This document shows positions 44,215 through 53,968 of a stretch of DNA of 56,839 bases, piece by piece. The stretch covers positions 1 to 56,839 of the forward strand of contig CAIQHF010000052.1 in assembly GCA_903871605.1 (NCBI GenBank), in the 5' to 3' direction. The translations under genes and the position numbers were made by a program. This DNA comes from an uncultured Sphingomonadaceae bacterium. GTDB lineage: Bacteria; Pseudomonadota; Alphaproteobacteria; Sphingomonadales; Sphingomonadaceae. The first letter of the stretch is position 1, and every line of letters starts with the position of its first letter. The notes under the pieces are model-generated. The model had not been told where the DNA came from. It did not search any database and was given only the letters and a program-made list of their open reading frames with translations.

Positions 44215-44516
44215 TAAGTAAAAGAGGGGAGCCAAATTTGGGCGGTAGTTTGCTTCGGCGCGGACGGCTTGTGCTGAAAGAAGCGGCTGCCAGGGTGTCA
44301 GACCACGCCACTCGATAGCCTACCGTATCATATCCCGGCTGCCATGTCATAAATCACCGAGAGACAGGATCGGCAACCGTCTACCCTCGGCCGCGCCGTG
44401 TCTCCGGGTCAGGTCGATCGGCCCAAACTTCCGTATGATACCGTCGCGATGCAGAAGCATCGATATGCCCTCTCGTCGGACGGGCGTGCCGCACGGTCGA
44501 ACGGATGGAGGACGAC
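44215..44516. other. Intergenic region containing promoter motif copy A
   Basis: About 300 bases without a gene. The only structure I can name is the 18-bp motif at 44422-44439 in front of the hydrolase gene. Confidence 0.45.
44422..44439 (+). promoter_or_regulatory. 18-bp cluster motif, copy A
   Basis: CCCAAACTTCCGTATGAT, 17 of 18 matches to the best form CCCAAACCTCCGTATGAT. It ends 77 bases before the chloroperoxidase-like gene. A GATATG-like -10 lies about 22-25 bases downstream, placing the motif over the -35 region. Confidence 0.65.
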
Positions 44517-45353
44517 ATGGGTTTTATCACGACCACAGATGGCGCGGAGATCTTCTACAAGGACTGGGGTCCCAGGGACGCCCAACCGATCGTGTTCCAC
44601 CATGGCTGGCCGCTGTCGTCGGACGACTGGGACGCGCAGATGATGTTCTTCCTGGCCAACGGCTACCGCGTCGTCGCGAGCGACCGTCGCGGCCATGGTC
44701 GCTCGTCACAGATTTCGACCGGCCATGACATGGATCATTATGCCTCCGACGCCAACGCGGTGGCCGAAGCGCTGGATCTGAGAGATGCGGTACATATCGG
44801 TCACTCGACGGGTGGCGGCGAGGTCACCCGCTATGTCGCCAAATATGGCGAGCCGCAGGGCCGAGTCGCAAAGGCGGTTCTGGTCAGCTCCGTTCCGCCG
44901 CTGATGGTCAAGACCGACACGAACCCCGACGGCACCCCGATCGAGGTGTTCGACGGTTTCCGCGCCGCGCTCGCCGCCAACCGCGCGCAATTCTTCCTCG
45001 ATGTCGCTTCCGGCCCGTTCTACGGCTTCAACCGCGAGGGTGCGAAGGTCTCCGAGGGTGTGATCCGCAACTGGTGGCGCCAGGGCATGGTCGGCAGCGC
45101 GCTTGCGCACCTGGAGGGCATCAAGGCCTTTTCCGAGACTGATCAGACCGAAGATCTGAAGGCGATCAGCGTTCACACGCTGGTGCTGCAGGGCGATGAC
45201 GACCAGATCGTCCCGTATAAGGACGCATCATTGCTTCAGGCGAAGCTGCTGAAGAACAGCACGCTCAAAATCTATGCGGGCTATCCGCACGGCATGCTGA
45301 CCACGCACGCCGACGTAATCAACCCGGACCTGCTCGCGTTCGTTCGCAGCTGA
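44517..45353 (+). CDS. Alpha/beta hydrolase, non-heme chloroperoxidase / arylesterase type
   Basis: A 278-residue hydrolase. Oxyanion motif IVFHHGWPLSSDDWD, VVASDRRGHGRSSQ, nucleophile HIGHSTGGGEVTRYVAKYGE (Ser in GHSTGG), VLVSSVPPLMVKTDTNPDG, acid VLQGDDDQIVPYKDA and His GYPHGMLTTHADVIN. It starts at ATG 44517 with GGAGG five bases upstream. This family (Cpo, aryl esterases) hydrolyses esters and, with peroxide and acetate, forms peracids. It carries motif copy A upstream and so is likely part of the stress regulon next to it. A strong terminator follows. Confidence 0.92.
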   Translation: MGFITTTDGAEIFYKDWGPRDAQPIVFHHGWPLSSDDWDAQMMFFLANGYRVVASDRRGHGRSSQISTGHDMDHYASDANAVAEALDLRDAVHIGHSTGGGEVTRYVAKYGEPQGRVAKAVLVSSVPPLMVKTDTNPDGTPIEVFDGFRAALAANRAQFFLDVASGPFYGFNREGAKVSEGVIRNWWRQGMVGSALAHLEGIKAFSETDQTEDLKAISVHTLVLQGDDDQIVPYKDASLLQAKLLKNSTLKIYAGYPHGMLTTHADVINPDLLAFVRS

Positions 45354-45368
45354 TCCAAACCCAAGCGG

Positions 45369-45402
45369 AAGGAGGGGGTTCGGCGCACTCCCTCCTTTTT
45401 TT
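45369..45402 (+). terminator. Rho-independent terminator after the chloroperoxidase-like gene
   Basis: 8-bp stem AAGGAGGG / CCCTCCTT with a 13-base loop and a seven-T run (45396-45402). It lies between convergent genes. Confidence 0.85.
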
Positions 45403-45464
45403 GCCCAACAGCGACCTCGGAGGTTGAATATCGCGAAGATCGGGGGGGGATTTCGCCTGAGTGG

Positions 45465-45764
45465 TCAATAATAGCGGGGTATAGGTCCGACCTGCTCGGT
45501 CTGATCGGGCAGATCCACTTCGATGTCGTCGACATAGCACCAGCCCCAGCCCTCGGGCGGATCATAACCTTCAATGATCGGATGTGCAGTGTGCTGAAAA
45601 TGCGCGCGGGCATGCCGGTGCGGCGATTGATCGCAACAGCCGACATGCCCGCATTCGCGGCAAAGGCGCAGGTGCAGCCATTCGCTGCCTATCTTCAAGC
45701 ACTCCTCGCAGCCGCGAGCGCTTGGCGTCACCTCGTGGATCATTCTCATGTGCGAGCAGGGCAT
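45465..45764 (-). CDS. UBP-type zinc-finger domain protein
   Basis: A 99-residue protein made of one ZnF-UBP domain: CEECLKIGSEWLHLRLCREC, GHVGCCDQSPHRHARAHFQH, TAHPIIEGYDPPEGWGWCYV. The Cys/His ligands and the Trp-rich tail are those of the ubiquitin-C-terminus-binding zinc finger of eukaryotic USPs, here in a bacterium without ubiquitin. The start ATG 45764-45762 shares its A with the stop of the upstream thioredoxin-reductase-like gene (TGATG), with AAGGAG before it, so the two are translationally coupled. It probably binds a free C-terminus or redox partner; unproven. Confidence 0.88.
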   Translation of the reverse strand: MPCSHMRMIHEVTPSARGCEECLKIGSEWLHLRLCRECGHVGCCDQSPHRHARAHFQHTAHPIIEGYDPPEGWGWCYVDDIEVDLPDQTEQVGPIPRYY

Positions 45765-47438
45765 CACGCATTCTCCTTGATCGGTGCGGGGCTGGTCGAA
45801 GTCGGTGCGACGCGGTCGCCGGCAAGCTTGGCGTGGATCTGGGCGACGACGGCCGCGCCCTCGCCGACGGCGGCGGCGACGCGCTTCGTTGATCCGGCGC
45901 GGACGTCGCCGATCGCGAAGACGCCGGGCAGGCTGGTCTCCAGCGGCAGCGCTCCGTCGCCCGTCGCCACGAAGCCGTGGCTGTCGGTGTCGACGCAGCC
46001 GTGAGCCCAGTCGGCGTTCGGATCGGCGCCGATGAACAGGAACATGTGACGGATTTTGTAGCGCTGATGCCCGCCTGTGGCGATGTCCACGAACGTCGCG
46101 GCGGACAGACCATCCTGCCGATTGCCCTCGACACCGGCAATTTCGGTGCCGACGTGGATGATGACATTGGGTAGTGAGGCGATGCGGTCGATCAAATATT
46201 GCGACATCGTTTCCTCGAGGCTCCGGCGCACCATCAGGTGCAGCGTCTTCACCTGGGGCGCGAGGAACACGATCGCTTGACCGGCCGAGTTGCCGCCACC
46301 GATCAACACGACCTCCTCACCCCGCGCAGAGCTTCGCCTCGATGGCCGATACCCAATAGGATATGCCGGCGCCCTCCAGCTCGTTCAGGTGGGGCACGTC
46401 GGGCCGGCGGTATCGCGCGCCCGAGGCGATCACGACGGTGCGCGCCCGGACGCGGCGGGCGCCGCCGCAGAACAGAACCGGATATGGCCCCTCGCACACC
46501 ATGCGTTCGACCGCGACCGGGATGGCGATTTCCGCCCCGAACTTCAGCGCCTGGTTGAAGGCACGGCCAGCGAGTGCCTGTCCGGATATGCCGGTCGGGA
46601 AGCCGAGATAATTTTCGATCCGGGCAGAAGCGCCCGCCTGGCCGCCCAGCGCGCGCGCGTCCAGCACGAGGACCGACAGGCCCTCTGACGCCGCATAGAC
46701 CGCGGTGGCTAGACCGGCCGGTCCGGCCCCGACGACCGCGACGTCGAACAGCTTATCGGGGTCGATGTCCGGCACCACGCCAAGGCAGGCGGCGAGATCC
46801 TCGTCGCTCGGCCGTCGCAGAAGCGGGCCGCTGGGGCAAACGACGAGAGGCAGATCATCGGGTGCGACGCCGGTGCGTTCGACGAGGTCGCGCCCTTCCT
46901 CGTCGGAACGCACGTCAAGCACGAGGTTGGGGAGCCCGCTGCGGTTCAGGAAGTTCTGCAATCGCAGCACGTCGGGGCTGTCGGGCAGGCCGATGATGAT
47001 GGTGCCGGCTCCTCCCTCCTCGATCAGGCTGACGCGTCGGAGGATCAGCGCGCGCATGACGATCTCGCCGAGATCGGCCGAACCGATCATCAAAGCACGC
47101 AGATGGGCGGCATCGAAGGGCAGCGCCGTGCAGCCGTCCGGGCCGGCGCGGCCCGCCGCGATCGATGGTCGTCCGGCGAGCTGATTCACCTCGCCGGAGA
47201 ATTGGCCCGGCCGGTGCGTGGTGATCCTCGCCTCGCGGCTGAGCCCATCGCGGCGCGCGACGTCGACGGTGCCGGCAAGGACCAGCCAGGCCGGGACGCC
47301 GCGGCTGCCGATGTCGTAGAGCATGTCGCCGGCGGCGAAGTTCCGTGCGGGCCCGCTGGCAAACCGGCGGGCGCTGTCCACCTGTTGCGGCGTCAACACG
47401 GGAAACATCTGGCTCTCGCGCGTTTCGATCGTGCTCAT
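45764..47438 (-). pseudogene. cNMP-domain thioredoxin-reductase-like flavoprotein with a frameshift
   Basis: Residues 15-140 are a cyclic-nucleotide-binding-like domain (NFAAGDMLYDIGSRGVPAWL), residues 145-215 a thioredoxin-like domain (GTIIIGLPDSPDVLRLQNFL), then FAD motif VAVVGAGPAGLATAVYAASE at 233 onward. The frame stops at TGA 46319-46317 after AIEAKLCAG; one base further the protein resumes in another frame with EEVVLIGGGNSAGQAIVFLA (NADPH motif) and ends TKRVAAAVGEGAAVVAQIHA. Deleting the T at 46319 restores about 557 residues, and the length is 3n+1. The CxxC of true thioredoxin reductase is absent: the site reads AIEAKLC. Motif copy B lies 85 bases upstream. The frameshift could be a sequencing error or a real loss. 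Confidence 0.85.
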
Positions 47439-47523
47439 GCCGTCGTCCTTTCGTGCGCGCCGTCGAAGTCCGAGACCGGCCCGTTACCCGGTGCGACTAT
47501 CCTCCTGCGGCAGGGCAGGGCCA

Positions 47524-47541
47524 CCCATACGGAGGTTTCGG
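47524..47541 (-). promoter_or_regulatory. 18-bp cluster motif, copy B
   Basis: On the minus strand CCGAAACCTCCGTATGGG, 15 of 18 matches to CCCAAACCTCCGTATGAT. It lies 85 bases upstream of the flavoprotein gene start and 18 bases from the oppositely oriented copy C, together forming a divergent control region. Confidence 0.6.
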
Positions 47542-47559
47542 GTGGTCAGGAAAAATGGC

Positions 47560-47577
47560 CCCAAACCTCCGTATGAT
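47560..47577 (+). promoter_or_regulatory. 18-bp cluster motif, copy C (best form)
   Basis: CCCAAACCTCCGTATGAT. It ends 62 bases before the HisKA_2 kinase start. Confidence 0.65.
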
Positions 47578-47639
47578 GGATCGCACCGGGCCCGATCCTT
47601 CACATGGCGTCATTCCATTCGAGATGGGGCAAGAAGGAC

Positions 47640-48275
47640 ATGATGATGGCTCACGACGTGCCGCCGGCGATCGCGATCCTGCCGCCTCCCGCAACACCGA
47701 GCGCCGCCGACGAGGCGAATCATCGGGTGGCGAACCAGCTCCAGCTTCTCGCAGCGCTCATCTCCGTCGAGGCGCGATCGGTCACCGATCCCGAAGGGCT
47801 TGCCGTCCTGCAGCGCACCCAGCAGCGGATCGCCGCCGTCGGCGGCGTTCACCGCCAGCTCTACCGGAGAGGCGGCGTCGAAATCGATCTGGCATCCTAT
47901 CTCGACGATCTCTGCGACCAGCTTGCGGGCAGTTGTCCCGAACATCGCAGCATCGCCTTCGACGCCGAGGCGGTGCTCGTGTCCGTCAGCGTCGCCACGT
48001 CAATCGGTAATCTCGCGACCGAATTGGTCACCAACGCGTGCAAACATGCCTATGCGGCGGATGAGCGCGGCAGTATCCTCGTCGTGTTGAAGCGAACCTT
48101 CGACGACGCGCTGCATCTTGTCGTCGAGGATCACGGCCGCGGCCTCCACGCCTGCACGTCGGGGACAGGATTTGGCAGTCGCCTGATCGATGCCACCGTC
48201 GCGAAGCTTCGCGGTTCGGCGGTCGTCGAAGATGCGCGACCAGGCAAGCGGTTCCGGATGACGTTCCGCCCGTGA
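47640..48275 (+). CDS. Short histidine kinase (HisKA_2 / HWE-like), no sensor domain
   Basis: A 211-residue cytoplasmic kinase. The dimerisation/phospho-acceptor helix has His28 in DEANHRVANQLQLLAALISV (HisKA_2 form) and the ATPase domain follows with N-box TELVTNACKHAYAADERG and G-box VVEDHGRGLHACTSGTGFGS. It has no sensing domain. ATGATGATG at 47640-47648 follows AGAAGGA; I take the first. Such short kinases in alphaproteobacteria often feed PhyR-like or single-receiver proteins. Motif copy C is upstream, so it belongs to the cluster's regulon. Confidence 0.88.
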   Translation: MMMAHDVPPAIAILPPPATPSAADEANHRVANQLQLLAALISVEARSVTDPEGLAVLQRTQQRIAAVGGVHRQLYRRGGVEIDLASYLDDLCDQLAGSCPEHRSIAFDAEAVLVSVSVATSIGNLATELVTNACKHAYAADERGSILVVLKRTFDDALHLVVEDHGRGLHACTSGTGFGSRLIDATVAKLRGSAVVEDARPGKRFRMTFRP

Positions 48276-48368
48276 TCGTCGGAACGATGCTCGATGCCGG
48301 TTGCGAGCGGCGGGCCGCTGCGTCAGCGTATTTGCGTGCGGACATAAAAGGTGCCGTCGGAGGCAAGC

Positions 48369-49892
48369 ATGGGGATTGGAGCGGGTCCAGATGATTGGCG
48401 GATCGCGATGAGGCTCGGCATGGCGATGCTGCTTGCCCTTGGTATATTCGCGCTCGATGTCCTCAGCCCGCTTCAGGGGGCCGTCGCCGTCCTGTACGTG
48501 GTTGTAATCCTGCTGGTGGCGCGCGAACAGCGCCGGTCGCTGGTCGTCTTCTTCGCTGTCCTGTGTGCGACGATGGCCATGGCAGGCTATCTCGTCAGTC
48601 ACGGTCTGGACGCGATCGGCTCGCCCACCATGCGGTTGGGCGTCAGCCTCGTCGCCATCGCGATCACGGCGGCGCTGAGCGCGCGACAGATTACCGCTGC
48701 TGAGGCACGCCACCATTCGGACGAACGCTATCGACTGATTTTCGATGCTTCGGGTTTCCCGATCTGGGAGAGCGATTGGTCGCCGGCCTATAAGCTCCTG
48801 CGGGCGGGTGAGACGCCGACCCTCGAACTCGTCCAGCGCGCCGGTTCCGCTGCGATCATCCGAAATGCCAACCAGGAGGTGGCGCGCCTGTTTGGATATG
48901 CCGATCGCTCCGAGCTGGTCGGCGCGAACATCATCGAGCACCACACGATCAGCGCGGAGGCGGCACAGGCCCGGATCTTCGAGCGGCTGCTTCGCGGCGA
49001 TGTACCGATCGAGGAGGAGATGCAGTTCCGAACGACCTCCGGCGAGCTGATCGACGTCGTGCTGCGCGTGACGCTGCCGCAGGACCATAATGGCTGGAGC
49101 CGAGTGCTGGTGACCGCGCTCGACGTCACCCAGCGTAACCGCGACCAGGCACGGCTGGCGGAGTCCCAGGCCGAACTGACGCACATGTCGCGTGTCACCA
49201 CGCTCGGCCAGCTGGCCGCATCGATCGCTCACGAGGTCAACCAGCCGCTGTCCGCGATCATCACTTATGCCAAATCCGGGCAGCGGTGGCTCAAGCGCGA
49301 GGCGCAGGATGCTCCCGAGACCGCAGATTGCCTCGACCACATCGTGATCAACGGCAAACGCGCGGCGGACGTGATCGCGCGGATCCGCGATCTCGCGCGC
49401 AACGGCGATCCACGGCGGGAGGCGGTAAGGATGGCACCACTCATCGAGGAAACGGCGGAACTGCTTCAGCGCGACATGATCGCGAGCGGGGTGAGGATCA
49501 ACGTCGCGCTGGCAACCGACATGCCGTCGGTCCTGGGCGACCATGTGCAACTCCAGCAGGTCCTGCTCAATCTGATGATGAACGCGCAACAGGCGATGGC
49601 TTCCACGCCGACACCTGATCGGGAACTACGCATCGACGGGGGCGTGCGGGACGGCGTGCTGGTCGTCGAAGTGAGTGACTGTGGTGCCGGTTTCGGGGAC
49701 ACGGAGCCGGAAGACTTCTTCCGGCCGTTCTTCACGACCAAGCGGGACGGCATGGGCATGGGTCTGTCGATATGCCGTTCGATCATCGAGCAGCACGGCG
49801 GCAAGCTGACCGCGAGCGGCAACGAGAAGGGCGGGGCGAGCTTCACCTTTCGTCTGCCGATCACCGAGGACGAGGGGAGGATCGCGGCATGA
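48369..49892 (+). CDS. PAS-domain membrane sensor histidine kinase (FixL-like architecture)
   Basis: A 507-residue kinase. About three to four membrane helices in residues 12-105, a PAS-like domain at about 118-255 (YRLIFDASGFPIW; ANQEVARLFGYADRSELVGA), HisKA with His288 in AASIAHEVNQPLSAIITYAK, N-box Asn405 in LLNLMMNAQQAMAS, G1 DCGAGFG (437-443), and G2 GMGMGLSICRS (461-470). The start is ATG 48369, since GGAGG (48359-48363) is five bases before it, not the upstream GTG. The stop overlaps the FixJ-type regulator start (ATGA). No heme-binding His typical of FixL is evident in the PAS, so the signal is unknown. Confidence 0.92.
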   Translation: MGIGAGPDDWRIAMRLGMAMLLALGIFALDVLSPLQGAVAVLYVVVILLVAREQRRSLVVFFAVLCATMAMAGYLVSHGLDAIGSPTMRLGVSLVAIAITAALSARQITAAEARHHSDERYRLIFDASGFPIWESDWSPAYKLLRAGETPTLELVQRAGSAAIIRNANQEVARLFGYADRSELVGANIIEHHTISAEAAQARIFERLLRGDVPIEEEMQFRTTSGELIDVVLRVTLPQDHNGWSRVLVTALDVTQRNRDQARLAESQAELTHMSRVTTLGQLAASIAHEVNQPLSAIITYAKSGQRWLKREAQDAPETADCLDHIVINGKRAADVIARIRDLARNGDPRREAVRMAPLIEETAELLQRDMIASGVRINVALATDMPSVLGDHVQLQQVLLNLMMNAQQAMASTPTPDRELRIDGGVRDGVLVVEVSDCGAGFGDTEPEDFFRPFFTTKRDGMGMGLSICRSIIEQHGGKLTASGNEKGGASFTFRLPITEDEGRIAA

Positions 49893-50536
49893 CCGGTGCG
49901 GCGAAGGCGGATTGCGTGTGCGTGATCGACGATGATGAAGAGGTTCGCGGATCGGTCGGCAGCCTCCTGCGCGCCGAGGGCTACGATGTTCGGCTCTACG
50001 AGGCGCCGAGCGGCTTTTTGGAAGCGGGTGCGTGCGATGTGCCGTCCTGCCTGGTGCTCGACATCCGCCTCTCCGGCGAGAGCGGTCTGGACTTCCAGGA
50101 AATCCTCGCCTCGCATGGCCTGTCGACGCCGGTGATCCTCATCACCGGCCATGGCGACATCCCGATGACCGTGCGCGGCATGCGTGCCGGCGCGATCGAT
50201 TTTCTGCCCAAACCCTTCGAGGACGACCAACTCTTGGCAGCCGTGGGTCGTGCGTTGGAGGTTGATCGTGCCCAGCGGACGGCCGCGCAGGGAATCGCCT
50301 CACTCAGGGCGATTTTCGAACGACTGACGCCGCGCGAGAAGGACGTATTCGGTCTTGTCGTCACCGGTTTGATGAACAAGCAGGTGGCGGCCCATCTTGG
50401 GCTCAGCGAGATTACGGTAAAGATCCACCGCGGCAATGTGATGAAGAAGATGGAGGCGCAGTCGCTCGCCGATCTGGTTCGCATGGCGGAGCTACTCGGT
50501 GTTCGGGATGTGACGATCCATCGCTACGGCACGTAG
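49889..50536 (+). CDS. FixJ/NarL-family response regulator
   Basis: A 215-residue regulator. Receiver with acidic pocket VCVIDDDEEVR, phospho-acceptor Asp58 (CLVLDIRLSGESG), Lys108 (DFLPKPFEDD), then a LuxR-type HTH: LTPREKDVFGLVVTGLMNKQ, VAAHLGLSEITVKIHRGNVM, KKMEAQSLADLVRMAEL. Start and kinase stop overlap, the classical kinase-regulator pair. It is the only complete DNA-binding response regulator in the cluster and the best candidate to bind the 18-bp motif found upstream of five nearby units. Confidence 0.93.
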   Translation: MTGAAKADCVCVIDDDEEVRGSVGSLLRAEGYDVRLYEAPSGFLEAGACDVPSCLVLDIRLSGESGLDFQEILASHGLSTPVILITGHGDIPMTVRGMRAGAIDFLPKPFEDDQLLAAVGRALEVDRAQRTAAQGIASLRAIFERLTPREKDVFGLVVTGLMNKQVAAHLGLSEITVKIHRGNVMKKMEAQSLADLVRMAELLGVRDVTIHRYGT

Positions 50537-50539
50537 CAC

Positions 50540-50557
50540 CCCATATCTGCGTATGAT
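50540..50557 (+). promoter_or_regulatory. 18-bp cluster motif, copy D
   Basis: CCCATATCTGCGTATGAT, 15 of 18 matches. It begins just after the FixJ-type gene and ends 72 bases before the TTG start of the lone receiver, in the range seen for the other copies. Confidence 0.6.
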
Positions 50558-50629
50558 GGTACCGTCCGGCTCCGCAGGCCATTTATGACGGGCAGAGGGG
50601 CCCATCAGGCCCGGATTCGGAGTTCCAAT

Positions 50630-50995
50630 TTGTCTCATCACCCTCTGGTAGCGATTGTCGACGACGATCCCGGTGTGAGCGGGAGCATCGCGAGCCTGCT
50701 TCGGTCGGCGGGGCTCGCGAGCGAGCGGTTTTCCTATGGTGGCGACCTTGTCGACCGTGGCGCGCTGGCCGAATTTTGTTGTGTGATCTCCGATCTCCAC
50801 ATGGAGGGGATGGACGGGAAGGCGCTGCAGCTCGAACTCATCAGGCTCGGTTGGGCAGGCCCGTTCATCGTCATCACCGCCTTTCCGAACGATTCCGAAC
50901 GTGAGCAGATGATGTCGAAGGGAGCCTATGCCTTCGTGACCAAGCCGATCGATCCAGACGGCTTCCTCGATCTCGTCGAGAAGGCGGTCGGCTGA
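50630..50995 (+). CDS. Single-domain response regulator (receiver only)
   Basis: A 121-residue receiver: acidic pair VAIVDDDPGVSG, phospho-acceptor Asp55 in CCVISDLHMEGMDG, and Lys105 in FVTKPIDPDGF. No output domain. I take TTG 50630 as start (GGAG eight bases upstream, homology begins there); ATG 50585 would add 15 residues of no evident fold. Single receivers act as phosphate sinks or inhibitors of a kinase. With two kinases nearby, cross-talk is likely. Confidence 0.88.
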   Translation: MSHHPLVAIVDDDPGVSGSIASLLRSAGLASERFSYGGDLVDRGALAEFCCVISDLHMEGMDGKALQLELIRLGWAGPFIVITAFPNDSEREQMMSKGAYAFVTKPIDPDGFLDLVEKAVG

Positions 50996-51104
50996 CTTCG
51001 CTGCTGGCGAAGCTGGCCGCCCTCGAAGGCGCCGCGCGGGCTGACCCATTGCAATGTCTGCCGGGCGTCCGCCATCCGGGGAATTCTTGCGCCCGGCGGC
51101 CGCC

Positions 51105-51905
51105 TCAAGCGATCGTAGGGACCACACCGCCGTCCACGCGCAGGGCGGCCCCGTTTGTGGCGGATGACAGCGGGCTGGCCACATAGGTGACGAGCGACGC
51201 GATCTCTTCGGGTTCGATCATCCGCTGGAGGAGCGACGTCGGCCGTTCCGTGGCAAAGAAGGCGCTCTCGATCACGTCGGCCGGCGCATCCGGATCTTCC
51301 GACACGCTTTTGAGGAAGTCGGTGATGCCCTCGGAACGGGTGGTGCCGGGAAGCACAGCGTTGACCGTGACACGCGTGCCCTTCGTCGCGGCGGCGAGGC
51401 CGCGCGCAATCGCAAGCTGCGCGGTCTTGGTCATGCCGTAATGAATCATGTCCGGCGGCACGACGAGAGCGGAATCGCTGGCGATGAAGATGATTCGGCC
51501 CCAGTTTCGCGCGATCATGCCGGGGAAGTAGGCGCGGGCCAGGCGCGCGCCGGAAAGCACGTTGACCTCGTAAAAGCGCAGCCAGTCGTCGTCGGTGATG
51601 TCGGCGAATTGTTTGGATTCGTAGATGCCGAGATTGTTCACGAGGATATCGACCTCGGGAAGCGCCTCGACGAGCGCGGCGGCCCCCTTCGCCGTGGCAG
51701 GATCGGCAAGGATGCCGCGGGCGCCGATCCCGGCTGCCGCGGCATCGACCTTTGCCTGGTTGCGACCACAGATCACGACCTCCGCGCCCTCCACGGAGAG
51801 CTTGCGCGCGATTTCCAGCCCGATGCCGGCCGTGGCGCCGGTCACGAGCGCCGTTTTCCCATTGAGTTGCAGATACACGTAAGGTCCCCGATTCTGGTCG
51901 GGCAT
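51105..51905 (-). CDS. Short-chain dehydrogenase/reductase (SDR)
   Basis: A 266-residue SDR. Cofactor motif TALVTGATAGIGLEIARKLS, NNLG, catalytic Ser in IFIASDSA, and Tyr-x3-Lys in MIHYGMTKTAQLAIARGLAA; C-terminus TNGAALRVDGGVVPTIA. All active-site residues are present. The substrate is not known. It is divergent from the LysR gene at 51978 with a 20-bp palindrome between them, a typical LysR-target pair. Confidence 0.9.
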   Translation of the reverse strand: MPDQNRGPYVYLQLNGKTALVTGATAGIGLEIARKLSVEGAEVVICGRNQAKVDAAAAGIGARGILADPATAKGAAALVEALPEVDILVNNLGIYESKQFADITDDDWLRFYEVNVLSGARLARAYFPGMIARNWGRIIFIASDSALVVPPDMIHYGMTKTAQLAIARGLAAATKGTRVTVNAVLPGTTRSEGITDFLKSVSEDPDAPADVIESAFFATERPTSLLQRMIEPEEIASLVTYVASPLSSATNGAALRVDGGVVPTIA

Positions 51906-51944
51906 CGTCTCTCACTACCGCCGCATTGATAATCCGCATCGTTG

Positions 51945-51964
51945 CCACATCATCTATGATGTGG
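51945..51964. promoter_or_regulatory. Perfect 9-bp inverted repeat, candidate LysR operator
   Basis: Arms CCACATCAT and ATGATGTGG separated by CT. It lies in the 72-base gap between the divergent SDR and LysR genes and ends 13 bases before the LysR start, so the regulator would repress itself there. An ATC-N6-GAT core differs from the one at 2972. Confidence 0.65.
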
Positions 51965-51977
51965 TTTCACAGGCCGC

Positions 51978-52886
51978 ATGGATCAGCGCACAGGCGATTT
52001 GCAGGTTTTCGTTCGGGTTGCGGAAAGCGGGAGTTTTTCCGACGCAGCGCGCGTGCTTCGGATGACACCATCGACGATCAGCAAATTGATCTCGCGCATG
52101 GAGAATCGCCTGGGTGTCCGTCTGTTCGAGCGCTCGACCCGGCGGCTCGCGCTGACGCTGGAGGGCAGCGAACTGCATGAACGCGGACGTAACGTGCTCG
52201 CCGAGCTGGATGCAGTGGAGCGGGATATTGCGGCGGGCGGCAGCACTGCGCGGGGCACGGTGAGGGTGAACGCCTCCGTCGCTTTCGGGCGGCTTGTCCT
52301 GTTGCCGATCCTCCCGTCCTTCTGCGGGGCGCATCCGGAAATCATGCTCGACCTGTCGTTCACCGACGAGGTGGTCGATCTTTATCTTGATCGCACCGAT
52401 GTCGCGTTTCGCGTCGGCGGGCTCGTCGATTCCAGCCTTGTTGGCCAACGGCTCGGCGCCGCGCGGCGTCTGATCGTCGCCAGCCCGGAATATCTCGCGC
52501 GCCACGGCGAGCCGCGCTCGGCGGACGACCTGCTTCGCCACAACTGCCTCGGCTTCAACTTCCGACGGGCGGCGCCGGTCTGGCCGTTGCGGGAGGGATC
52601 GCGGATCGTCGAGCGTAAGGTCACTGGCTCGCTCGTCGCCAACGACGGCGAGATCGTCCGCGCGATGGCGATCGCGGGCGTCGGCCTTGCACGCCTGGCC
52701 GACTTCCACGTGCGGGAGGACGTAAAGGCAGGCCGGCTCGTCGAGATACTCGCCAATGTCGTCCCGCGCGACGAGGAGGAGATCGGCGCGCTCCATACCG
52801 GAGGCGCGCGCCCACCGCGGCGGGTGTCGGCGTTCCTCGACTTCGTCATCCCTCGGTTGCGCCACATTCTCAGCGAGACCGTCTGA
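51978..52886 (+). CDS. LysR-family transcriptional regulator
   Basis: A 302-residue LysR protein: HTH FVRVAESGSFSDAARVLRMT then STISKLISRMENRLGVRLFE, substrate-binding domain GTVRVNASVAFGRLVLLPIL and SLTDEVVDL-like region (LSFTDEVVDLYLDRTDVAFR). It starts at ATG 51978. Divergent from the SDR gene with a palindrome between them. It most likely controls the SDR. Confidence 0.9.
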   Translation: MDQRTGDLQVFVRVAESGSFSDAARVLRMTPSTISKLISRMENRLGVRLFERSTRRLALTLEGSELHERGRNVLAELDAVERDIAAGGSTARGTVRVNASVAFGRLVLLPILPSFCGAHPEIMLDLSFTDEVVDLYLDRTDVAFRVGGLVDSSLVGQRLGAARRLIVASPEYLARHGEPRSADDLLRHNCLGFNFRRAAPVWPLREGSRIVERKVTGSLVANDGEIVRAMAIAGVGLARLADFHVREDVKAGRLVEILANVVPRDEEEIGALHTGGARPPRRVSAFLDFVIPRLRHILSETV

Positions 52887-52905
52887 TCGAGCCGGGCGGC
52901 TCGAG

Positions 52906-52923
52906 CCAAAACCTAGGTATGGA
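52906..52923 (+). promoter_or_regulatory. 18-bp cluster motif, copy E (weakest)
   Basis: CCAAAACCTAGGTATGGA, 13 of 18 matches. It ends 65 bases before dps, at the same distance as the other copies, with a TATTTT-like -10 about 22 bases downstream. Confidence 0.5.
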
Positions 52924-52988
52924 TTGGCGACATCGGCCACGCGCCTATTTTCAGCCGACCGCCCGCTTGAGGATGATGGAGACGACCA

Positions 52989-53516
52989 ATGACGACCCAA
53001 AATGCTACGCCCCGCATCGGAGAGCATTTCCTCGCGACGCCGACCGATCTCGGCACCGATGCGACCCGCGACATCTCTGCCGGTCTCGCTGGACTTCTGG
53101 CGGACGTCTTCGCGCTTTATCTGAAGACCAAGAATTTCCACTGGCACATGAGCGGCCCGAACTTCCGCGACTATCATCTGATGCTGGACGACCAGGGCGA
53201 CCAGATTTTCGCGATGACTGATGTGATCGCCGAGCGTGCCCGCAAGATCGGCGGCAATACGATCCGCTCGATCTCCGACATCGCCGCGCGCCAGCGCCTG
53301 CTCGACAACAATGCAGACTATGTCGATCCGCAGGATATGCTGGCCGAGCTTCAGCGCGACAACAAGCAGCTGGTCGCCGAAATGCGGCGCGTTCACGAGC
53401 TGTGCGACAGCTATTCCGACGTCGCTACCGCCAGTCTGCTCGAAAACTGGATCGACGAGACGGAGCGACGCAGCTGGTTCCTCTTCGAGGCCTGTCGCCC
53501 CACGCGGGGGCTATAG
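52989..53516 (+). CDS. dps: Dps-family DNA-protection / ferritin-like protein
   Basis: A 175-residue ferritin-fold protein. The ferroxidase region is LYLKTKNFHWHMSGPNFRDY with His51/His53, followed by HLMLDDQGDQIFAMTDVIAE that provides the acidic ligands; the C-terminal helix is SLLENWIDETERRSWFLFEA. It forms a dodecamer that stores iron using peroxide and binds DNA. ATG 52989 fits the family. The upstream 18-bp motif places it in the cluster's two-component regulon, which fits a redox or starvation stress role. The adjacent LysR gene on the same strand may also read into it. Confidence 0.93.
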   Translation: MTTQNATPRIGEHFLATPTDLGTDATRDISAGLAGLLADVFALYLKTKNFHWHMSGPNFRDYHLMLDDQGDQIFAMTDVIAERARKIGGNTIRSISDIAARQRLLDNNADYVDPQDMLAELQRDNKQLVAEMRRVHELCDSYSDVATASLLENWIDETERRSWFLFEACRPTRGL

Positions 53517-53968
53517 CCTCCAACCGGCGGGACGAGTTGGCGGGCGGCAGCCTTGGATTTATGAAGGCGGTCGCCCGCCCTCCGTACCTTCTCGCTCGGC
53601 GGCGAATATTGGATTGCGGAGCCGACAGGGCTTTTGGCTGCTTCGGGCGCGGGCCGTTCGCACGCCATCCTATGATCATCGCTGTTTGTGGGACTGCTCA
53701 GAGCACCGCGGTGTTGGCGGTCAGCGGTGATGATATGCGGACACGAGCACTCGCCTCAAACGCTCGAGCAATATGGACCATTTCGGGAGGCTCTGATCGC
53801 CTGGGCTTCGGTGCCGGATCGAACGGCCCACCCGGCAGGATTAACAAGCGTCCGAGGTTGGGAACGTCGTGAAGGGCGCTGAACGGTAACTAGGTAGTGA
53901 ACCCATAAATCGGTATCGTGGTTGCTCCCAGCCATTCCCTCGAAAAGCTGCGTGATATATCGGGAAGC
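53517..53968. other. Intergenic region after dps
   Basis: No supported gene. A GC-rich inverted repeat (GGCGGGCG near 53540, CGCCCGCC near 53573) could end dps transcription, but the loop is 25 bases or more and there is no T-run. The rest is of lower GC and looks like DNA disturbed by mobile elements. Confidence 0.35.

Follow-up and report, generated by a model that had tools for sequence, protein, structure and literature searches.

The NarL/FixJ family of response regulators, which join a receiver (REC) domain to a GerE helix-turn-helix domain and bind inverted repeats as dimers, includes StyR of the StyS/StyR system, TodT of the TodS/TodT system and FixJ of the FixL/FixJ system. StyR and TodT, which control aromatic catabolism, share the operator ATAAAC-N4-GTTTAT, composed of two 6-bp half-sites spaced by 4 bp, and the contact residues of StyR are Lys175, Val176 and His179 (PMC5874301). 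In the FixLJ system, fixT is induced by FixLJ, and its product, a single-domain receiver, inhibits FixL; a four-cysteine Fe-S motif is described as unique to the Caulobacter FixT (PMC7078487). Here, we analyze a 56,839-nt stretch of DNA from an uncultured Sphingomonadaceae bacterium (contig CAIQHF010000052.1; the whole stretch is hereafter called the window, and the genome assembly comprises 4.28 Mb), in which five copies of an 18-bp dyad precede stress and signalling genes in and around a two-component gene cluster. On the comparisons described below, these sites are likely to serve the two-component system of the cluster itself as operators, with the StyR-like regulator encoded there binding them as a dimer and activating the five genes.

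Comparison with described two-component systems

The regulator of the cluster comprises a receiver (PF00072, 1.1e-23) and a GerE helix-turn-helix (PF00196, 2.8e-21), the domain architecture of the NarL/FixJ family that is shared with the regulators of StyS/StyR, TodS/TodT and FixL/FixJ. Among solved structures StyR is the closest (E 4.7e-54), ahead of FixJ (7.9e-39). Compared with the StyR/TodT operator, the operator here has equal half-site spacing and the common inner AWAC, whereas the outer half-site letters differ, being mostly C next to AWAC here and T in StyR, so that the sites do not conform to ATAAAC-N4-GTTTAT itself. Among the StyR contact residues, Lys175 is kept, whereas Val176 is replaced by Ile and His179 by Gly, and the set as a whole is not retained; the recognition helix reads TVKIHRG here, TVKVHRH in StyR and TIEVYRA in Bradyrhizobium FixJ. 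Because the architecture is the same, the operator appears to be a StyR/TodT box in variant form, which would be read by a changed helix. The putative targets, however, are stress and signalling genes rather than genes of aromatic catabolism, and, unlike the TodS-type hybrids described in PMC5874301, the kinase has one transmitter and Pfam shows no receiver in it.

The kinase carries a FixL-like transmitter. On the other hand, both proteins score below the cut-offs of the NCBIfam equivalogs (FixL, 211.5 of 850; FixJ, 192.6 of 255), which sets the regulator apart from FixJ proper; as to a haem-binding PAS domain, the FixL model aligns from residue 251 only, behind the PAS domain of the kinase. 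The operator also differs from the FixJ sites quoted in PMC4999443. A likeness to the FixLJ-induced fixT is that a single-domain receiver adjoins the system and has its own site. This receiver keeps the phosphorylation residues and lacks the four-cysteine motif, which was absent from the window receiver and 64 relatives (three alignment columns contained more than 20% Cys, one of them 92%).

EcfG promoters, which have the consensus GGAAC-N16-GTT, were rejected as the common element, since GGAAC-N15..18-GTT has five matches in the whole window and none at the five promoters; the element that these promoters share is the dyad. The PhyR-EcfG general stress response is comparable in another respect, because a HisKA_2-type kinase is among the putative targets, and HWE/HisKA2 kinases mainly activate PhyR in alphaproteobacteria (PMC6599016).

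The putative operator sites

The element is an imperfect dyad, CAWAC-N4-GTWTG, with its centre between positions 9 and 10 of the 18 bp. The five window sites (Table 1) are symmetric at 8, 10, 8, 8 and 12 of 18 positions, compared with a random mean of 5.0. Some relatives have more symmetric forms: examples are TCATACCTAGGTATGA, which recurs in several loci of Bradyrhizobium and in L078 stands ahead of the kinase, and TTCACACCATGGTTTGGG ahead of dps.

The initial annotation had proposed five such sites ending 62-85 bases before start codons. A matrix trained on the window returned these five, at the proposed places and in the proposed orientations, as its top five hits (23.0-28.4 bits), the next hit being 13.9 bits at position 53902; 40 order-2 Markov sequences gave a mean of 1.1 hits at 13 bits or more, and this test is circular for the five sites. 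Because of this circularity, another matrix was derived from 31 unique sites in relatives, which came from a word search independent of the window motif. With this relatives-only matrix, the same five sites rank 1-5 in the window (28.1, 24.6, 16.5, 15.0 and 12.2 bits), the sixth hit reaches 10.8 bits, and the best hit of the reversed window (10.3 bits) lies under all five. The weak hit at 53902 fell outside the top 14 of this matrix and was dropped. The distances from site end to start codon are 77, 85, 62, 72 and 65 bases, within the proposed range; in-frame upstream ATGs at 44505 (hydrolase), 47604 (HisKA_2 kinase) and 50585 (receiver) mean that three of the five start codons are not fixed.

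The element also emerged de novo. When all 4-base words at spacings 0-12 were counted ahead of target homologues (101 regions, thinned to 74), the top word was AAAC-N4-GTAT, present in 36 of the 74 regions, which are not fully independent because both sides of one divergent promoter pass the thinning, versus 26 of 2960 random stretches of the same loci.

The rest of the organism's own genome was searched with IUPAC patterns, the sensitivity of which is below that of a matrix. One pattern, at no more than one mismatch, matched eight places, five of which are the sites (reversed control 0); another, at no more than two mismatches, matched 12 places including the five sites (reversed control 10). 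The other seven places of the latter pattern do not exceed the 10 of its control, and by these two pattern searches no comparable site was found elsewhere in the 4.28-Mb genome. The regulon, if real, would thus be local. Three weak matches outside the cluster (C46, C48 and C51; loci L005, L006 and L007) were not taken as regulon members; the one at L007 lies 53 bases ahead of an open reading frame (ORF) resembling, by eye, a membrane transporter.

Promoter layout

The candidate -10 hexamers of the window occupy site end +23 to +28, close to the distance of about 22 bases that had been noted for most of them, and the second base is A in four of the five. The same spacing is found in relatives: among 56 of their dyad sites, the mean -10 score is 4.35 at offset +23 versus an overall mean of 2.19, +23 is the best offset in 12 of the 56 and any other offset in at most four, and A stands at +24 in 71%, this signal being diluted because some sites enter the 56 twice, once per direction.

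If the hexamer is taken as the -10, the site lies at about -52 to -35. No TTGACA-like -35 was found at the matching spacing in the five window promoters (1-3 of 6 matches). Promoters without a TTGACA-like -35 are typical of activator dependence, and the combination of a -10-like hexamer with a poor -35 suggests such dependence here. Such an arrangement corresponds to promoters that an activator assists from the -35 region, which would be class II activation. The idea of an activator over the -35 region, as initially put forward, is consistent with the fixed -10 spacing and the absent -35 hexamer, but needs correction in that the site abuts rather than covers the -35 position.

Association with the response regulator

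With the regulator as the sole query, 590 loci were confirmed, and the best 80 of these were scanned with the window matrix. The 80 come from genera including Sphingomonas, Novosphingobium, Pseudooceanicola, Bradyrhizobium, Burkholderia, Lysobacter and Luteibacter, and range from Alpha- to Gammaproteobacteria. A site of at least 17 bits is present in 51 of the 80 loci versus 2 of 80 when reversed, and a site of at least 20 bits in 24 versus 0; all 11 loci with regulators 64-71% identical to that of the window (L009-L019) have a site of at least 17 bits. Of the 79 unique sites at or above 17 bits, 57 precede an ORF with a match among the proteins of the window cluster. Around regulators of 50-60% identity, the dyad lies within 1.5 kb in 62 of 72 cases (control 9 of 72). 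Of 10 new regulator loci that came from a class-level draw of 289 genomes, seven have the dyad (control 1 of 10). Sites are conserved ahead of homologous genes beside related regulators. The candidate FixJ-type regulon of the initial annotation is supported with respect to the link with the cluster's NarL/FixJ-family regulator, and needs refinement with respect to the type, because the regulator is nearer to StyR than to FixJ.

Putative target genes in relatives

A refuting observation named at the outset was that relatives might keep the genes and lack the motif, and this was checked in the regulator-anchored loci, with a background of 3.35% per random 250 bp and with all related rows counted without thinning. 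The dyad is found upstream of the HisKA_2 kinase in 9 of 9 cases, of the lone receiver in 39 of 51, of Dps in 9 of 12, of the hydrolase in 10 of 17, of the flavoprotein in 3 of 5 and of a UBP zinc-finger gene in 3 of 7. The corresponding counts are 0/5 for SDR, 1/6 for LysR, 3/17 for the kinase and 18/103 for regulator-type hits. With the matrix at 14 bits or more, the counts are 9/9 for HisKA_2, 34/51 for the receiver, 3/12 for Dps, 12/17 for the hydrolase, 3/5 for the flavoprotein and 3/7 for UBP, and 0/5, 1/6, 2/81 and 12/103 for SDR, LysR, kinase and regulator-type hits, respectively; reversed controls are 0 except for the receiver (3), the kinase (1) and the regulator (2). SDR (0/5) and LysR (1/6) were rejected as regulon members, as relatives show no motif ahead of them. 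Ahead of the kinase-regulator operon itself a site is mostly absent, and the commonest unit among the relatives is kinase-regulator-[site]-lone receiver.

In eight genomes or records of relatives, 22 matches were found (control 0), of which 18 lie, by position, in the regulator's cluster or in a second copy of it. Such second copies with their own divergent sites were seen within the same genome in a Pseudooceanicola (G119, L158) and in Novosphingobium sp. PhB57 (G124, L142); the HisKA_2 kinase match of L142 is in two pieces. An off-cluster site in Sphingomonas kyeonggiensis DS2008 (G121:C1:858949, L145) stands 70 bases ahead of a gene that by eye resembles old yellow enzyme.

Weighing of the evidence

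Several observations weigh against an operator dedicated to this regulator at activator-dependent promoters. In relatives, the -35 place (42 sites) matches TTGACA with a mean of 2.38, above most positions, with at least four matches in 6 of the 42; one register inside the motif has at least four matches in 7 of the 42, and a partial -35 may thus be present in some relatives. No cluster-type gene follows 22 of the 79 sites, some of which resemble chance hits within genes, and 7 of 17 hydrolase homologues and 2 of 5 flavoprotein homologues are without a dyad. Near regulators of at least 60% identity, the window's included, a dyad within 1.5 kb occurs in 0 of 13, because the sites lie farther off or have a weaker left half; the receiver sites near these regulators have a degenerate left half and score 11-12 bits. 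Among the 289 class genomes, the strict pattern is present in 4, the regulator in 11 and both in 2, so that the strict pattern is missing from 9 of the 11 regulator-bearing genomes, presence or absence at this strictness being too insensitive a test. Of 21 loci whose regulator has a TVE-type (FixJ-like) helix, one has a dyad in the vicinity (control 2 of 21), and all of these 21 loci are from the window's own family, which confounds helix class with kinship and weakens it as proof of the binder. Within that family, just 2 of 9 TVK/TAK loci show a strict dyad at a distance of up to 1.5 kb, and the count of 61 of 80 comes from other sources. In the covariation of the StyR-176 residue with the outer half-site base, A at site position 16 accompanies Val in 7 of 7 and Ile in 16 of 54 (Fisher p 0.0006), and a C as the left base accompanies Val in 2 of 7 and Ile in 47 of 54 (p 0.002), but these figures rest on two tree changes (1-2 independent pairs) and are thus a lead rather than evidence. 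The Val-helix regulators are those of L024, L029, L034, L041, L055, L056, L094 and L166, and no site follows the regulator gene of L024.

The regulator might bind the sites and repress, or work both ways depending on its phosphorylation state. There is a precedent in Rhodopseudomonas palustris, where unphosphorylated FixJ binds the nifA and nifH promoters and represses nitrogenase expression (PMC13327599), and the site here adjoins the -35 position; the -10, however, is not covered by the site, and the hexamers of the window promoters with their 1-3 of 6 TTGACA matches suggest activator dependence instead, which makes repression unlikely. Binding of the motif by another protein, such as the LysR-type regulator of the cluster or an unlinked factor, is conceivable in that a LysR gene is at hand, a motif alone names no binder and kinship confounds the comparison of helix classes. 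Nevertheless, among the 80 loci only six LysR relatives have a usable upstream region and one of these a dyad, sites occur in 51 of the 80 loci selected solely through the response regulator and in 7 of another 10 loci, and the half-site spacing of the operator equals that of the StyR/TodT box; we regard another binder as quite improbable.

The five similar sites lie inside 9 kb, with none comparable elsewhere by the genome pattern searches, as would result if one promoter had been copied by recent local duplication without any shared regulator. By eye, however, it is the distance between site and -10 that is common, not the intervening sequence; the same gene types have sites at equal -10 spacing in other orders and classes, and the AAAC-N4-GTAT word that arose de novo from the promoters of relatives likewise speaks against duplication, for which we see hardly any room. 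Since the sites precede the same gene types in other orders and classes, they have probably been kept by selection. Activation of the five genes by the StyR-like regulator is thus the reading that we develop below.

The gene cluster and its distribution

Table 1. Putative operator sites, -10-like hexamers and genes of the cluster in the window
Feature	Position	Strand	Basis or remark
Operator site CCCAAACTTCCGTATGAT, ahead of chloroperoxidase-like hydrolase	44422..44439	+	matrix scans
Operator site CCGAAACCTCCGTATGGG, ahead of flavoprotein	47524..47541	-	matrix scans; divergent from HisKA_2 kinase site
Operator site CCCAAACCTCCGTATGAT, ahead of HisKA_2 kinase	47560..47577	+	matrix scans
Operator site CCCATATCTGCGTATGAT, ahead of lone receiver	50540..50557	+	matrix scans; directly past regulator's stop codon
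Operator site CCAAAACCTAGGTATGGA, ahead of dps	52906..52923	+	matrix scans; highest symmetry of the five (12/18)
-10-like hexamer GATATG (hydrolase)	44462..44467	+	site end +23
-10-like hexamer GATAGT (flavoprotein)	47496..47501	-	
Weak -10-like hexamer TCACAT (HisKA_2 kinase)	47600..47605	+	
-10-like hexamer CATTTA (lone receiver)	50580..50585	+	
-10-like hexamer TATTTT (dps)	52946..52951	+	
Alpha/beta hydrolase, cofactor-free chloroperoxidase/arylesterase type	44517..45353	+	best PDB hit chloroperoxidase L 1a88, E 1.8e-135
cNMP-binding and thioredoxin-reductase-like flavoprotein, N-terminal part	46317..47438	-	profile search
HisKA_2 histidine kinase, 211 amino acids	47640..48275	+	only HisKA_2 and HATPase domains found
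PAS histidine kinase, FixL-like transmitter, presumed cognate sensor	48369..49892	+	4gcz, E 1.4e-54
NarL/FixJ-family response regulator, StyR-like, presumed site binder	49889..50536	+	profile and structure matches
Single-domain receiver, residues D12, D13, D55, T83, K105	50630..50995	+	TTG start assumed; in-frame ATG 50585 possible
LysR-type regulator	51978-52886		in cluster
Dps ferritin-like DNA-protection protein	52989..53516	+	profile search

The translation of the PAS kinase has a hydrophobic N-terminus. In the alignment of the lone receiver with 64 relatives, D12, D55, T83 and K105 are present in all rows and D13 in 98%. The flavoprotein is split on the minus strand: its reductase domain begins in 46317-47438 (profile 1-133) and resumes in another frame at 45764-46309 (profile 148-291), which may reflect a sequencing error or a real break; in three relatives the protein is one reading frame of 543-550 amino acids. 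It is followed by a UBP-type zinc-finger gene (PF02148, 45465-45767, minus strand), the homologue of which has its own site in three Sphingomonas kyeonggiensis strains.

On plasmids, relatives of the regulator at E <= 1e-40, counted regardless of helix class, were found on 394 records, two of which have one of at least 60% identity; in 20 plasmid records listed, such regulators are named generically or not at all. Dyads are present in all four plasmid stretches fetched (reversed control 0, 0, 0 and 2). Those of a Novosphingobium plasmid precede a divergent flavoprotein/kinase pair and dps, and a Bosea plasmid has two between dps and the kinase (L177 2635-2803; reversed control 1 per strand). 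The cluster of this Bosea plasmid (L177 878-10558) lies beside dps, redoxin, DsbA, cytochrome bd and FdhF/YdeP genes. In a sample of 119 genomes of the window's family, a regulator of more than 60% identity is present, besides the window's genome, in G011 only (68%), the congener G043 has a match of at best 52%, and the nearest neighbour of the window regulator in the tree is from a metagenome-assembled genome of Maritimibacter. This patchy distribution and the Maritimibacter neighbour make horizontal spread of the regulator likely.

Proposed mechanism and implications

In the most likely model, the PAS kinase would phosphorylate the StyR-like response regulator, a dimer of which would then bind the dyad and recruit RNA polymerase to promoters with a -10 and no -35 consensus. 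The genes switched on in this manner would be those for the lone receiver, the sensorless HisKA_2 kinase, the chloroperoxidase-like hydrolase, the thioredoxin-reductase-like cNMP flavoprotein and Dps, and this target list suggests that the system responds to oxidative or electrophile stress, that is, to a redox-type signal. A probable role of the lone receiver is feedback on the kinase, comparable to the action of FixT on FixL; a role as a phosphate sink is equally possible, because the receiver looks phosphorylatable. The HisKA_2 kinase may link the system with a further phosphorelay, such as the general stress response via PhyR.

A two-component regulon of the NarL/FixJ family is of a known kind; what appears to be new here is the StyR-like operator variant together with the target set, and no published account of this regulon or operator was recognised in searches of the open-licence PMC literature. 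It is also tempting to speculate, with about even chances of being right, that the kinase, the StyR-like regulator, the dyad and the lone receiver form a widely spread, undescribed module, the core target of which is its own phosphorylatable receiver as a built-in feedback, and to which sphingomonads and their relatives have added the sensorless HisKA_2 kinase along with a peroxide/redox kit. The outer base of the half-site may depend on whether Ile or Val occupies the StyR-176 position. An inference drawn at first from one sequence alone has, in its essentials, survived independent tests, and it gives a predicted operator, promoter layout and target set for a group of response regulators. The group offers a test case for DNA reading by NarL/FixJ-family helices and for feedback by single-domain receivers outside FixLJ. 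If the speculation on the module is true, a transcription factor would re-wire phosphorelay signalling in these bacteria by making new relay proteins.

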